The position numbers were made by a program, and so were the translations under genes. Below the pieces are notes generated by a model, which ran no database searches, was not told the origin of the DNA, and saw nothing but the letters and a program-made list of their open reading frames with translations. Positions 3,900 through 9,349 of a stretch of DNA of 38,978 nucleotides are shown in pieces (position 1 is the first letter of the stretch; every line of letters begins with the position of its first letter). This DNA comes from Alphaproteobacteria bacterium (GTDB lineage: Bacteria; Pseudomonadota; Alphaproteobacteria; CACIAM-22H2): contig JAEUKZ010000001.1 of the NCBI GenBank assembly GCA_016793045.1, positions 1 to 38,978 of the forward strand, given 5' to 3'.

Positions 3900-4790
3900 A
3901 TGACTGCTGCGAGCGGGTTGCGCGCGGGCGCCTTGGTCCTGGCGCTGGTGGTGCTTGCGGGCTGCGTGCCCGAGAACTATCTGCGCACGCGCAGTCAGCC
4001 CGCCGGCGCCGCGCCGACGGCGCAGGAGGTCGTCGTGCGTTCGGGCGAAAGCCTTTCGGTCATCGCCCAGCGCCAGGGCGTCTCGACGCGCGCCATGGCG
4101 GAAGCCAACAATCTGCGCCCGCCCTATGTCGTCCGCCCCGGCCAGCGGCTGACCGTCCCGCGCGGCGACGCGCCGCGCCCGGCCGAGCCGTCAGCGGCCG
4201 CACGCGCCGCATCCCCGCCGGCGAGCGGCGCCGACGCGCCGCCGAGCGCACCGAGCGGCGATCGCGTCGAGCGGCAGACCCTGGCGCCGCCATCGTCAGC
4301 GCCGCCGGCGGCGCGGAACGGCCGCACGGCGTCACCTGACCCGCGATCGGAACCGGCGCCGGCCGCTGCGGCGCCGGCAAGCGACGACAGCGGCGCCACG
4401 CCGCCGCGCGCCGGCCGTCTGTTCGCGTGGCCGCTGCAGGGCAACATCGTCTCGGATTTCGGGCCGAAGCCGGGCGGCCTGCACAACGACGGCATCAACA
4501 TCGCGGCGGCGCGCAACACCCCGATCCGCGCCGCCGAGAACGGGGTCGTCGTCTATGCCGGAAACGAGCTCCGCGGCTTCGGCAACCTGCTGCTGGTCCG
4601 CCACGCCGACGGCTGGGTCACCGCCTACGGCCACTGCGAGCAGCTGCTCGTGCGCCGCGGCGCCCAGGTCCGGCGCGGCCAGGTGATCGCGCGGGTGGGA
4701 TCGAGCGGCAACGTCCGCACGCCGCAGCTCCATTTCGAGGTGCGGCGCGGAACGCGGCCGGTCAACCCGAACGAGTATCTGGAGCGCTGA
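3900..4790 (+). CDS. nlpD: NlpD-type LysM/LytM (M23-like) lipoprotein, probably non-catalytic
   Basis: Predicted envelope lipoprotein that regulates cell-wall amidases during division. The 296-residue product has a signal peptide ending in the lipobox LAGC (Cys22). A LysM peptidoglycan-binding domain spans about residues 43-87 (VRSGESLSVIAQRQGVSTRA). A long Ala/Pro/Ser-rich linker follows to about residue 175, then a C-terminal LytM/M23 fold. The zinc site is degenerate: where active enzymes have HxGxD this protein has NDGIN, and the HLH motif is QLH. E. coli NlpD is similarly degenerate and acts as an activator of AmiC, so an amidase-activator role is inferred. It is the last gene of the serS-surE-pcm-nlpD chain and converges on the ATPase gene seven bases away. 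Confidence 0.9.
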   Translation: MTAASGLRAGALVLALVVLAGCVPENYLRTRSQPAGAAPTAQEVVVRSGESLSVIAQRQGVSTRAMAEANNLRPPYVVRPGQRLTVPRGDAPRPAEPSAAARAASPPASGADAPPSAPSGDRVERQTLAPPSSAPPAARNGRTASPDPRSEPAPAAAAPASDDSGATPPRAGRLFAWPLQGNIVSDFGPKPGGLHNDGINIAAARNTPIRAAENGVVVYAGNELRGFGNLLLVRHADGWVTAYGHCEQLLVRRGAQVRRGQVIARVGSSGNVRTPQLHFEVRRGTRPVNPNEYLER

Positions 4791-4796
4791 GCGCGT

Positions 4797-5654
4797 TCAG
4801 CCGATGCGCGTGCCGTGCCGGCCGGCGAGGTCCTGGATGAACTGCCAGGCAACGCGGCCCGAGCGCGAGCCGCGCGTGACCGACCATTCGTTGGCCTCGT
4901 GTTCGATGGTCGCGCGGTCGACCGCGATGCCGTAGCGCCGCGCATAGCCCTCGACCATCGCGAAGTAGGTGTCCTGGTCGCAGTGGTGGAAGCCGAGCCA
5001 CAGGCCGAAGCGGTCCGACAGCGAGACCTTCTCCTCGACCGCCTCGCCGGGGTTGATTGCGGTCGAGCGCTCGTTCTCGATCATGTCGCGAGCCATCAGG
5101 TGGCGCCGGTTCGAGGTGGCGTAGAACACCACATTGGTCGGCCGCCCCTCGACGCCGCCCTCGAGCACCGCCTTGAGCGACTTGTACGCGGTGTCCTCGG
5201 CGTCGAAGGACAGGTCGTCGCAGAACAGCACGAAGCGCCGCTGCGAGCCGCGCAGGACCTGGAGCAGGGCGGGCAGGGTCGGGATGTCCTCGCGGTGGAT
5301 CTCGACCAGTGCGAGCGCCTTGGGCGTGGCCTCGTTGATCGCCGCATGGATCGACTTCACGAGCGAACTCTTGCCCATGCCGCGCGCACCCCACAGCAGC
5401 GCGTTGTTGGCCGGCAGCCCGTCGGCGAACCGGCGGGTGTTGTCGAGGAGGATGTCGCGCTGCCGCTCGATCCCGCGCAGCAGGTCGAGATCGACGCGGT
5501 TGACCTCCGCGATCGCCTGCAGGCGATGGCCGTCGGCATGCCAGACGAAGGCGTCGGCACTCGACAGATCGTTCCGGGGCGGCGGCGGCGGGGCGAGGCG
5601 GTCGAGCGCGTCGGCGACGCGGGTGAGCAGCGATTCGAGGTGGGCGGGGTCCAT
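4797..5654 (-). CDS. DUF815-family AAA ATPase
   Basis: A 285-residue P-loop ATPase of the DUF815 family, common in alphaproteobacteria but of unknown cellular function. Walker A is GARGMGKSS at residues 89-97, and a Walker B-like FVLFCDDLSFD lies near residue 145. Typical family stretches such as the VDLDLLRGIERQRDILLDNTRRF region before the P-loop are present. The family often sits near nlpD/yajC in this clade, as here. A good promoter (TTGACC, 16 bases, TAAGGT) lies just upstream of the ATG on the minus strand, so it is transcribed apart from the flanking plus-strand operons. The molecular target cannot be read from the sequence. Confidence 0.9.
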   Translation of the reverse strand: MDPAHLESLLTRVADALDRLAPPPPPRNDLSSADAFVWHADGHRLQAIAEVNRVDLDLLRGIERQRDILLDNTRRFADGLPANNALLWGARGMGKSSLVKSIHAAINEATPKALALVEIHREDIPTLPALLQVLRGSQRRFVLFCDDLSFDAEDTAYKSLKAVLEGGVEGRPTNVVFYATSNRRHLMARDMIENERSTAINPGEAVEEKVSLSDRFGLWLGFHHCDQDTYFAMVEGYARRYGIAVDRATIEHEANEWSVTRGSRSGRVAWQFIQDLAGRHGTRIG

Positions 5655-5805: not shown

Positions 5806-6348
5806 ATGTTTTCATCGCCCGCTTTTGCCCAGGCCGCCGGTGGTGCGCCGGGCGGTTTCGATATCATCGCGCTCGCGCCGTTGGTGCTGATCTTCGTCGT
5901 CTTCTACTTCCTGATCATCCGGCCGCAGCAGAAGAAGATGAAAGACCACAAGGCGATGATTGAGGCGCTGCGCCGCGGCGACCGCATCGTCACGTCGGGC
6001 GGCATCATCGGCACGGTGACCAAGATCATCGACGATCGCGAGATGGCACTGGAGGTCGCCGACGGCGTGCGCGTCAAGGTGCTGCGCAGCATGGTCGCGG
6101 AGGTTCTTGCGCGGACCGGGGCACCCGATGCCAAGGACGCCAAGGAAGAGAAGAAGTCGAGCGAGCCGGACTTCTACAAGGTGCTCGGCGTCAAGAGCAG
6201 CGCCACGGTGGCCGAGATCGACGCCGCCTTCGCGCCGAAGTCCGACGACCCGAAGGCCGTCGAGGCCTACGACACGCTCAAGGATCCCGTGAAGCGCAAA
6301 CTCTACGACTCGCTCGGCCACGATCAGTACGTGAGCCGCATTCGCTGA
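5806..6348 (+). CDS. yajC: YajC, Sec translocon accessory subunit, with a C-terminal HPD-less J-like domain
   Basis: YajC is a small inner-membrane partner of SecD-SecF in the Sec translocon. Residues 1-18 are short and periplasmic, a single membrane segment spans about 20-38, and the conserved YajC domain (RPQQKKMKDHKAMIEAL, then GDRIVTSGGIIGTV) runs to about residue 100. This protein has 180 residues where YajC usually has 90-130. After a charged linker (about 105-120), residues 122-172 read DFYKVLGVKSSATVAEIDAAF, then EAYDTLKDPVKRKLYDSLGH. These are the beginning and end of a DnaJ J-domain, with about 15 residues missing in the middle, including the HPD tripeptide needed to stimulate Hsp70. 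The operon continues 27 bases later with secD. The YajC call is firm; the J-like reading is by eye. Confidence 0.93.
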   Translation: MFSSPAFAQAAGGAPGGFDIIALAPLVLIFVVFYFLIIRPQQKKMKDHKAMIEALRRGDRIVTSGGIIGTVTKIIDDREMALEVADGVRVKVLRSMVAEVLARTGAPDAKDAKEEKKSSEPDFYKVLGVKSSATVAEIDAAFAPKSDDPKAVEAYDTLKDPVKRKLYDSLGHDQYVSRIR

Positions 6349-6375: not shown

Positions 6376-7953
6376 ATGCTGCAGATCCCACGCTGGCGCG
6401 TCATCGTCGTGGCACTCGTCTGCCTGATCGGGGCGATCTACGCGGTGCCGAGCTTTTTGAGCCGGGACTTCGCCGACTCGCTGCCGCGCTGGGCGCCGCG
6501 CCAGCAGGTGACGCTTGGACTTGACCTCCAGGGCGGCTCGCATCTGCTCCTCGAGGTCGACTTCCAGGCGGTGATTCGCGACCGCATCCGCAACATCGAG
6601 GACGGCATCCGCGCCTCGATGCGCCAGGCCCGCATCGCGATCTCGCCGCCGCAGGCCGACGGAACGTCCGGCGTCACGGTCCGCATCCGCGACCCGGCCC
6701 AGCTCGAGGCGGCCCGCAATGCGCTGCGCGATCTCGACCGCACGGCCCAGCTCGTCTCCGGCCCAGACCAGACGATCGCGCTGCGGTTCAATGAGCAGGC
6801 GCTGCTCGAAGAGCGCCGCCGTGCGGTGTCGCAGTCGGTCGAAATCGTCCGCCGACGCATCGACGAAACCGGCGCGCGCGACCCGACCATCCAGGTCCAG
6901 GGCCAGGACCGCATCCTGGTGCAGCTTCCCGGCGTGCGCGACCCGGAGCGCATCAAGGGCCTCCTCGGCCGCACCGCCAAGCTGAACTTCCATCTGCTCG
7001 ACACGCAGAACACGCCGGCCGACGTCGCCGCAGGCCGCGCGCCGGGCAGCATCGTTCTGCCGGGCGATCGCGATGCCGGCGGCGGCCCGCAGCAATACGT
7101 GGTGCTGCGGCGGATCAACGTCGCCGGCGAGCGGCTGACCGATGCCCAGCCGGGCCAGAACGGCCAGACCGGGGAGTGGATCGTCAATTTCACCTTCGAC
7201 GGCGCCGGCTCGCGCCAGTTCGCCGATACGACGCGCGAGAATGTCGGCCGGCCGCTGGCGATCGTGCTCGACAACAAGGTGATCAGCGCGCCCGTGATTC
7301 GCGAGCCGATCCTCGGCGGCCGCGGCCAGATTTCCGGCAGCTTCACCGCCGCGACGGCATCGGATCTCGCCGTGCTGCTGCGCGCCGGCGCCCTGCCTGC
7401 GCCGCTGACCGTGATCGAGGAACGCACGGTCGGCCCCGATCTCGGCGCCGATTCGATCCGCGCCGGCGCGATCGCCATTTCGATCGGCTTCGTTCTGATC
7501 GCGGTGCTGATCGTCGCCGGGTACGGTCTGTTCGGCATGATCGCCAACGTGGCCCTGATCCTCAACATCCTGTTCACGCTGTCGATCATGGCGATGATCG
7601 ACGCGACGCTGACGCTGCCCGGTCTTGCGGGCATGGTCCTCGGCCTCGCCATGTCGGTCGATGCCAACGTGCTGGTCTATGAGCGAATGCGCGAAGAGGC
7701 GGCAGCGGGACGATCGCCGTTCCCGGCGGTCGACGTCGCGTTCCAGCGCGCCTTCATCACCATCCTCGATTCCAACCTGACGACGCTGATCGCGGCGGTG
7801 TTCCTCTATGCGTTCGCGAGCGGTCCGGTGCGCGGCTTCGCGGTCACGCTGGCGATCGGCATCATCTGCTCGATGTTCACCGCGGTGACCGTGACGCGGA
7901 TGCTGATCGTCGGCTGGCTGTTCTGGCGCCGGCCCAAGCAGCTGCCGATCTGA
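6376..7953 (+). CDS. secD: protein translocase subunit SecD
   Basis: Large polytopic membrane protein that with SecF uses the proton gradient to pull preproteins out of the SecYEG channel on the periplasmic side. The 525-residue product has one N-terminal membrane segment (about 7-27), the LGLDLQGGSHLLLEVD motif (about 48-63) and a long periplasmic P1 region. The RND-type membrane bundle begins near residue 360, with GLAMSVDANVLVYERMREE near residue 423. The length fits alphaproteobacterial SecD. It sits between yajC and secF (24-base gap), as expected for one operon. Start ATG 6376 (MLQIPRWRVIVV) is well placed. Confidence 0.97.
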   Translation: MLQIPRWRVIVVALVCLIGAIYAVPSFLSRDFADSLPRWAPRQQVTLGLDLQGGSHLLLEVDFQAVIRDRIRNIEDGIRASMRQARIAISPPQADGTSGVTVRIRDPAQLEAARNALRDLDRTAQLVSGPDQTIALRFNEQALLEERRRAVSQSVEIVRRRIDETGARDPTIQVQGQDRILVQLPGVRDPERIKGLLGRTAKLNFHLLDTQNTPADVAAGRAPGSIVLPGDRDAGGGPQQYVVLRRINVAGERLTDAQPGQNGQTGEWIVNFTFDGAGSRQFADTTRENVGRPLAIVLDNKVISAPVIREPILGGRGQISGSFTAATASDLAVLLRAGALPAPLTVIEERTVGPDLGADSIRAGAIAISIGFVLIAVLIVAGYGLFGMIANVALILNILFTLSIMAMIDATLTLPGLAGMVLGLAMSVDANVLVYERMREEAAAGRSPFPAVDVAFQRAFITILDSNLTTLIAAVFLYAFASGPVRGFAVTLAIGIICSMFTAVTVTRMLIVGWLFWRRPKQLPI

Positions 7954-7977: not shown

Positions 7978-8934
7978 ATGCGTCCGATCAAGCTCCTCAA
8001 GTCGGTCCCGAAGCTGGACTATTTCCGGCATCACAAGCTCTGCTTCGCCATCTCGATCATCCTCTGCCTCGTCTCGGTCGTTTCGCTCGCGACCCGCGGT
8101 CTCAACTACGGGGTCGATTTCGCCGGCGGCATCATGATCGAGGTCCGCATGCCGACCGCCGCGAATCTCGGCGAACTCCGCCAACGGGTGAGCGCGCTCA
8201 ATGTCGGCGACGTCTCGCTGCAGGAGTTCGGTTCCGATCGCGAGATCCTGATCCGCGTCGAGCGCCAGGCCGGCGGCGAACAGGCCGAGATGGACGTGGT
8301 TCGCCGGGTGCGCGAATCGCTGGGCGAGGGCGTCGAGTACCGCCGCGTCGAGGTCGTCGGGCCGAAGGTCGGTGCGGAACTGATCCGCGGATCGATCCTG
8401 GCGGTGGCGCTGTCGCTCGTCGGCATCCTTGGCTTCATGGCTTTCCGCTACGGCTGGCAGGCCTCGGTCTCCGGGGTCATCGCGCTGCTGCACGACTGCG
8501 TGACGACGGTCGGCCTGTTCTCGGTCACCGGCCTGCAGTTCGATCTCAACACCGTCGCCGCGGTGGTGACGATCGCCGGCTTCTCGATCAACGACACGGT
8601 GGTCATCGACGACCGCATCCGCGAGAACTCGCGCAAGTTCAAGCGCATGGATTTCCGCGAAGTGGTCAATCTGAGCGTGAACCAGACCATGTCGCGCACG
8701 ATCATGACCAACGGCCTGCTGTTCCTCGCGGCGCTGGCCCTGTTCCTGTTCGGCGGTCCGGTGCTGCAGGGCCTCAACGTGGCTCTGCTGTGGGGCGTCA
8801 TCATCGGCACTTACTCGACGGTCTACGTCGCCGCGCCGCTGGAATGGTACCTGGTCGGCAAGCGCCGCAAGGCGCACGAGGCCGATGCAACCGAGCCGAC
8901 CGAACCCGGCGCACCGCAGCAGTCGCAGGGCTGA
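7978..8934 (+). CDS. secF: protein translocase subunit SecF
   Basis: Partner of SecD in proton-driven late steps of protein export. The 318-residue product has an N-terminal membrane segment, the LNYGVDFAGGIMIEVR motif (about 42-57), and a C-terminal five-helix bundle with the conserved GFSINDTVVIDDRIREN stretch near residue 200. It starts at ATG 7978, 24 bases after secD. The C-terminal tail is short and hydrophilic (HEADATEPTEPG). The NDUFAF3-like gene follows closely. Confidence 0.97.
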   Translation: MRPIKLLKSVPKLDYFRHHKLCFAISIILCLVSVVSLATRGLNYGVDFAGGIMIEVRMPTAANLGELRQRVSALNVGDVSLQEFGSDREILIRVERQAGGEQAEMDVVRRVRESLGEGVEYRRVEVVGPKVGAELIRGSILAVALSLVGILGFMAFRYGWQASVSGVIALLHDCVTTVGLFSVTGLQFDLNTVAAVVTIAGFSINDTVVIDDRIRENSRKFKRMDFREVVNLSVNQTMSRTIMTNGLLFLAALALFLFGGPVLQGLNVALLWGVIIGTYSTVYVAAPLEWYLVGKRRKAHEADATEPTEPGAPQQSQG

Positions 8935-8962
8935 AGTCCTGGGCGCGCCGCCCGGCCGCGTC

Positions 8963-9349
8963 ATGCGCGAGACGCCGACCGCTCCCGCCGGACGGCAGAT
9001 CATCGAGGCCTACGGGCCGGGCCGGATCCGCATTTCGGGCGCGATCCATCAGCGGCCGGTCATCATCCTGCCGGATGCGGTGGTCGACTGGCCGGTTGCG
9101 ACCATCGCGGACCTGAGCGTCGACAGCCTCATCGCGGTCGCATCGGTCCGTCCGCCGATCGAAATCCTCATCATCGGGTGCGGCCCGCGCATGGCCTTCA
9201 TCCGCCCCGACCTCCGGCAGGCGTTGCGCGCGTCGGGCCTGGTCGTCGATGCCATGGACACCGGGGCGGCCTGCCGGACCTACAACGTCCTTTTGGCCGA
9301 GGATCGGCGCGTCGCCGCAGCCCTGATCCCGCTGCCCGCGCAGGCCTGA
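8963..9349 (+). CDS. Mth938/DUF498-domain protein, NDUFAF3-like
   Basis: Small soluble protein of the Mth938-like family (DUF498/DUF598), to which the human complex I assembly factor NDUFAF3 belongs. From the preferred ATG at 8963 it has 128 residues (MRETPTAPAGRQIIEAYGPG). Hallmarks are the RISGAIHQRPVIILPDAVVDWPV stretch, the IEILIIGCGPRMAFI strand-loop, and the C-terminal MDTGAACRTYNVLLAEDRRVAAALIPL. An alternative ATG at 8885 lies within secF and would add 26 residues without family similarity. Its place directly behind secF is the known conserved neighbourhood of this family in alphaproteobacteria. The biochemical function is not established; a role in membrane-complex assembly is inferred from the mitochondrial relative. 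Confidence 0.88.
   Translation: MRETPTAPAGRQIIEAYGPGRIRISGAIHQRPVIILPDAVVDWPVATIADLSVDSLIAVASVRPPIEILIIGCGPRMAFIRPDLRQALRASGLVVDAMDTGAACRTYNVLLAEDRRVAAALIPLPAQA

Follow-up and report, generated by a model that had tools for sequence, protein, structure and literature searches.

The YajC protein encoded in the window, by which we mean the whole stretch of 38,978 nt analyzed here, carries 60 C-terminal residues that are shown by our analyses to be a J-domain with its hairpin tip cut off. We consider it moderately probable that this tail serves SecDF-YajC on its cytosolic side as a noncatalytic J-like docking module and that it descends from a YajC-J-domain fusion that still carried the HPD motif. 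The role of YajC itself is poorly understood.

The yajC gene occupies positions 5806–6348 on the forward strand and encodes a protein of 180 aa with a YajC part and a trimmed J-like tail, delimited from its open reading frame and from Pfam and TIGR00739 matches. The Pfam YajC domain covers residues 23–98 (E value 2.8e-30), and the TIGR00739 score of 96.8 bits (E value 5.7e-28) exceeds the cut-off of 44.2, which together with secD and secF downstream identifies the protein as a YajC family member. It is the first gene of the usual yajC-secD-secF order and is followed 3' on the forward strand by secD (6376–7953; TIGR01129, 3e-140) and then secF (7978–8934; TIGR00966, 4.7e-88). The end of secF is overlapped by a gene for a DUF498 protein (8885–9349, forward strand; PF04430, 3.1e-34); a DUF815 AAA ATPase (4797–5654, reverse strand; PF05673, 4.8e-107) is encoded divergently from yajC, and a protein with LysM and M23 peptidase domains, similar to DipM/NlpD, is encoded at 3900–4790 on the forward strand.

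Residues 24–53 (5875–5964; all features of yajC are on the forward strand) form a long helix in the AlphaFold2 model that includes a single transmembrane segment, and the sequence following this segment, RPQQKKMKDHK, marks the positive side; from the positive-inside rule and the known topology of YajC, we infer that this side and the tail face the cytosol. The conserved cytosolic beta domain of YajC comprises residues 40–101 (5923–6108), as defined by the Pfam match and by Foldseek, in which 9a7v_A (titled YrbF-GlpD) ranks first for the full-length model with a TMt of 0.85. A charged linker of low conservation (residues 102–119; 6109–6162) leads into the tail, which consists of J-domain helix I and a short helix II (residues 122–145; 6169–6240), a 10-residue substitute for the hairpin tip (residues 143–152; 6232–6261), and the end of helix III, helix IV, and the sequence LGHDEY (residues 153–175; 6262–6330). 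The window protein thus shares the N-terminal transmembrane helix, the beta domain, and the secD/secF gene order with YajC proteins (TIGR00739, PF02699) but has 60 extra residues that, among the matches listed, other sampled YajC proteins lack, with the sole exception of one protein, L032, that is described later.

Assignment of the tail to the J-domain family is based on several comparisons. The DnaJ model PF00226 matches the tail of the full-length protein in two pieces (E value 5.4e-7, 30.1 bits), the first of them at residues 122–143, and matches the tail by itself with an E value of 4.6e-8; the tail scores of 30.1–33.5 bits lie above the family cut-off of 27.8 bits. The alignment to TIGR02349 (DnaJ_bact) spans residues 122–175, and 13 of 13 tails from the same family match PF00226 at the E-value limit applied. 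As a single sequence the tail retrieved J-domains from among solved structures at 7.7e-6, whereas a profile of the 13 family tails found about 50 J-domain chains below an E value of 1, the best being the J-domain of DNAJB9 at 1e-11; this profile was built from 13–18 sequences that all come from one family. A preliminary description of the locus had read residues 122–172 as J-like, and these matches bear that out. Foldseek searches with the tail returned J-domain and J-like chains throughout with a probability of about 1, although with E values of only about 0.01 because the domain is so short, and VIA-align gave Z scores of up to 8.2 over 62 residues. Chance resemblance is ruled out by the Pfam and solved-structure profile matches. 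A frameshift or assembly artefact is likewise ruled out because the same tail is found in 18 genomes; the tail is in frame and GC3-rich. A phage origin was also rejected, there being no phage match.

Alignment with Escherichia coli DnaJ shows precisely what has been lost. Window residues 122–142 correspond to DnaJ residues 5–25 and residues 153–175 to DnaJ residues 52–74, and the 26 residues between them in DnaJ (26–51) are replaced by the 10 residues 143–152. What is missing is the distal half of helix II, the HPD loop, and the portion of helix III that ends at DnaJ residue 51; L032 and the DnaJ of the window's genome have all of these. Helix I, helix IV, and the base of the hairpin are kept, with helix II halved and both arms of the hairpin shortened. 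Compared with the DnaJ J-domain (PF00226), the tail therefore retains helix I, the base of helices II–III, helix IV, and the equivalents of L57, D59, R63, and the GH pair (L158, D160, R164, and GH171–172) but lacks the HPD loop, the hairpin tip, and the basic residues of helix II. AlphaFold2, supplied with 13 sequences of which three have the tail, predicts that residues 121–180 fold, at a pLDDT of 89–95, like a J-domain whose helix II–III hairpin is shortened, with helices at residues 123–127 (I), 135–145 (short II), 149–159 (short III), 161–170 (IV), and 172–179; when the tail was modeled by itself, these helices reappeared but with lower confidence (pLDDT 78). The helical hairpin fold expected at the outset is thus predicted, as a four-helix J fold whose II–III hairpin is shortened, and J-domains top the structure search. 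The preliminary description had both helix II and the HPD loop removed; the loss of HPD is confirmed by the alignment, whereas helix II is halved rather than absent, a short helix being predicted at 135–145.

The losses affect the face of the J-domain that acts on Hsp70. HPD, which is required for Hsp70 stimulation (PMC13254874) and marks functional J-proteins, is absent from the window YajC and from all 18 tailed members of its family. None of the 18 tails has K or R at the positions of DnaJ residues 19, 22, and 23, where A, D, E, or T is found instead, and what remains of helix II has a net charge of −1 to −3 compared with a net positive charge in DnaJ; the positive charge of helix II contributes to binding between J-domains and Hsp70 (PMC7289447). 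A designed J analogue without HPD still stimulated Hsc70 (PMC13254874), so absence of the motif is not absolute proof of inactivity. Nevertheless, with HPD and the basic residues of helix II both gone in 18 of 18 tails, it is very unlikely, as judged from sequence, that the tail stimulates DnaK by the usual mechanism, and it is unlikely to be an active co-chaperone; on the same grounds DnaK, earlier envisaged as a possible partner, would be unlikely to dock at the usual face. Alternatively, the tail might recruit DnaK without stimulating it, the KRKLY sequence of helix IV binding DnaK weakly and concentrating it at SecDF without ATP hydrolysis. KRKLY occupies the position that the QKRAA motif has in DnaJ, R164 is invariant and residue 163 is always K or R, and according to one proposal helix IV with QKRAA increases the affinity or specificity for Hsp70 (PMC1906734). 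This model is kept alive by the finding of DnaK and DnaJ in SecYEG interactomes (PMC8082313), and a recruiter role of HPD-less J-proteins has been named as an open question (PMC13254874); however, the main binding face is missing from 18 of 18 tails, and we regard recruitment of this kind as quite unlikely.

Conservation was expressed as mean identity and pN/pS over the 18 tailed genomes. The transmembrane region is 76% identical with a pN/pS of 0.31, the YajC core (residues 40–101) 68% with 0.52, the linker 49% with 0.74, and the first part of the tail (residues 120–143) 51% with 0.59, whereas residues 151–175 are 82% identical with a pN/pS of 0.22 and are the best-conserved stretch of the protein. 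Sixteen tail positions are invariant over the 18 genomes, among them T157, L158, D160, P161, R164, K165, L166, Y167, L170, G171, and H172 within residues 151–175; the invariant L127, G128, L158, D160, R164, and G171-H172 correspond to L10, G11, L57, D59, R63, and G70-H71 of DnaJ. Where the YajC tail has K165 and L166, the DnaJ proteins compared have A-A (or S-A) and L032 has K-I, and the tail ends in LGHDEY compared with GHAAF in DnaJ; on these alignments, K165-L166 and the LGHDEY ending are signatures of the YajC tail that are nearly matched in L032. The family's own DnaJ, compared in six genomes, is also best conserved in helices III/IV (95% compared with 73% in helices I–II), so constraint from the fold alone may explain part of the conservation of the tail.

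This pattern bears on two further explanations. The suggestion that the tail is a decayed J-domain kept as a spacer fits the loss of the active tip, the absence of the whole tail from three relatives with small genomes, and an identity of about 51% in helices I–II, but the C-terminal half is under strong purifying selection, which contradicts it; because residues 151–175 change at a slower rate than the YajC core, a decaying spacer is unlikely, and with the fold predicted confidently and the tail kept in six genera we give this explanation very little credence. A structural role, in which the trimmed domain rests against the YajC beta domain or cytosolic loops of SecDF and stabilizes the complex, would fit strong conservation without an Hsp70 face and has precedents among J-like subunits of respiratory complexes, mitoribosomes, and axonemes, of which the Foldseek results include those of ciliate complex I, the trypanosome mitoribosome (mL77), and axonemal complexes. 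We think such a role rather unlikely, as the linker is variable and predicted to be disordered at residues 105–117 (pLDDT below 50), and the model, with a whole-protein pTM of 0.38, predicts no fixed packing of the tail against YajC.

J-like proteins of type IV are defined by a recognizable J-domain in which HPD is nonconservatively altered (PMC13254874). The tail belongs with them in lacking HPD, as does, for example, DNAJB13, a pseudo-J protein with a recognizable J-domain and no working HPD; however, described examples have a substituted HPD, whereas in the tail HPD is deleted, 26 residues being reduced to 10. The preliminary description had drawn a parallel to Pam16/Tim16 of mitochondria. 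Pam16 forms a heterodimer with Pam18, and both Pam16 and the YajC tail place an HPD-less J-like domain on a protein translocon, but Pam16 is mitochondrial and has DKE or DKS at the HPD position, whereas the tail has a deleted hairpin tip and no sequence match to Pam16. Among solved structures, the tail profile retrieved no Tim16/Pam16 chain at an E value of 10 or less, PF03656 did not match the tail at the same limit, and a PF03656 search of the family did not report yajC; Pam16 is also not among the chains listed by VIA, although absence from that list is no evidence of absence. The general claim of an HPD-less J-like module on a Sec accessory subunit holds, as the module is conserved in relatives and predicted to be a helical bundle, whereas the specific parallel is not supported by these searches or by the differing anatomy.

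A function like that of Pam16 could exist without such kinship: the pseudo-J tail would pair with a true J-protein (DnaJ or a Tim14-like protein) and restrain or place Hsp70 at the translocon. Pam16 sets the precedent that an HPD-less J-like subunit can act in this way (PMC13254874), and the window's own genome encodes candidate partners in the form of HSP70 (two strong matches and additional partial ones), DnaJ, and a Tim14-like membrane J-protein. Against this, a Pam16/Tim16 match is absent, the hairpin is shortened instead of substituted, and the weak PF03656 match in this genome is to the Tim14-like protein and not to YajC; we judge the Pam16-like function distinctly unlikely. The Tim14-like protein (L114, G000:C14:7522-7659, reverse strand) is a membrane protein of 169 residues that ends in an HPD-containing J-domain; its best match among solved structures is yeast Tim14/Pam18 (2guz_A, E value 3.8e-9), and by sequence it is a candidate J partner. 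Elsewhere in the genome (G000:C125:7398-9741), an HSP70 gene lies beside a weak J-domain match (E value 6.6e-5) on the same strand, an arrangement that suggests hscA-hscB.

The window belongs to a GTDB family of uncultured alphaproteobacteria represented by 23 genomes, 21 of which have a recognizable YajC. Absence of the extension from all close relatives had been named as grounds for abandoning the J-like reading; the tail is present in 18 of these 21 genomes, covering six genera. The other three, from one genus with genomes of 1.7–2.6 Mb, have a 122-residue YajC without it, and a nineteenth genome (G007) has an 18-residue tail fragment on a separate contig. Among the best matches listed for 385 genomes sampled from the class, those that extend through the whole tail belong to the window's family and to genome G332 alone, and among the matches listed for 398 genomes sampled from the phylum, the YajC of the window is the single such case; the two samples overlap partly and cover about 780 Pseudomonadota genomes, in which a divergent case below the matches listed is possible. 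Outside YajC, other matches to the trimmed J-domain in the 23 family genomes occur only in DnaJ-sized frames, a search of 190 class genomes at an E value of 1e-9 or less found none except one DnaJ-sized match, and relatives with a tail-less YajC have no separate gene for the tail.

The earlier proposal to look for YajC proteins that keep HPD was answered by one protein, L032 (JADFMW010000058.1, match at 4001–4600, genome G332), which among the matches listed is the one tailed YajC outside the family in these approximately 780 genomes. It has the same fusion arrangement but retains helix II and a whole J-domain with KYHPDTN, and it is known from a single contig of one alphaproteobacterial metagenome-assembled genome; neither of the two remaining genomes from its family and order has a tail on YajC. 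In helices III/IV, L032 is identical to the window at 18 of 23 positions compared with 10–14 of 23 for the DnaJ proteins compared, and over the 18 tails it shares 14–18 of 23 compared with 12–15 for the best DnaJ. This greater closeness to L032 than to DnaJ is a modest indication, at the level of sequence, that both forms derive from a single J cassette. The window's family falls into two groups in the tree of YajC plus SecD (AU p 0.002–0.004) and also in that of SecD alone, whereas YajC alone groups most of the family weakly. L032 is placed away from the family in the gene trees with tail-less sisters in between, so descent from an HPD-bearing fusion may require lateral transfer or several losses. 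The trees conflict on the age of the fusion and are compatible with gain, loss, and transfer alike. In SecD trees (loci L001–L022), one group of the family adjoins Azospirillum and Ferrovibrio, at odds with the family grouping, and transfer of secDF is possible. A more far-reaching scenario, to which we give little weight, is that of a domesticated J-domain that was first an active recruiter of DnaK of the L032 type and then became a trimmed pseudo-J controlling Hsp70 or a J-protein at SecDF-YajC, an independent bacterial counterpart of Pam16/Pam18.

The docking module that we favor would have begun as an HPD-bearing YajC-J fusion like L032 that brought DnaK to SecDF-YajC. The DnaK-activating face would then have been lost and the domain kept in the cytosol on the flexible linker as a noncatalytic module, which would hold a partner beside SecYEG-SecDF through the conserved surface of helices III/IV with KRKLY..LGHDEY. 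The occurrence of DnaK and DnaJ in SecYEG interactomes (PMC8082313) makes this setting plausible. The candidates for the partner are a factor that handles nascent chains, SecA, SecD/F itself, and a chaperone bound without stimulation.

In the open-access literature, judged by titles, abstracts, and term counts, no YajC-J-domain fusion is described. The combination of YajC with a trimmed J-domain therefore appears to be undescribed, although HPD-less J-like proteins as such are already known. Whether these are accidents or products of selection was called open in a 2026 review (PMC13254874). The YajC tail provides a naturally occurring example of a J-domain that has lost its Hsp70-activating part by deletion and whose remainder stays under selection on a subunit of the Sec translocon, and with the HPD-bearing L032 available for comparison it makes Hsp70-independent J-domain function testable. 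L032, if real, would be a translocon-anchored active co-chaperone, and the two forms suggest a possible route by which chaperones may be tied to the bacterial Sec machinery.
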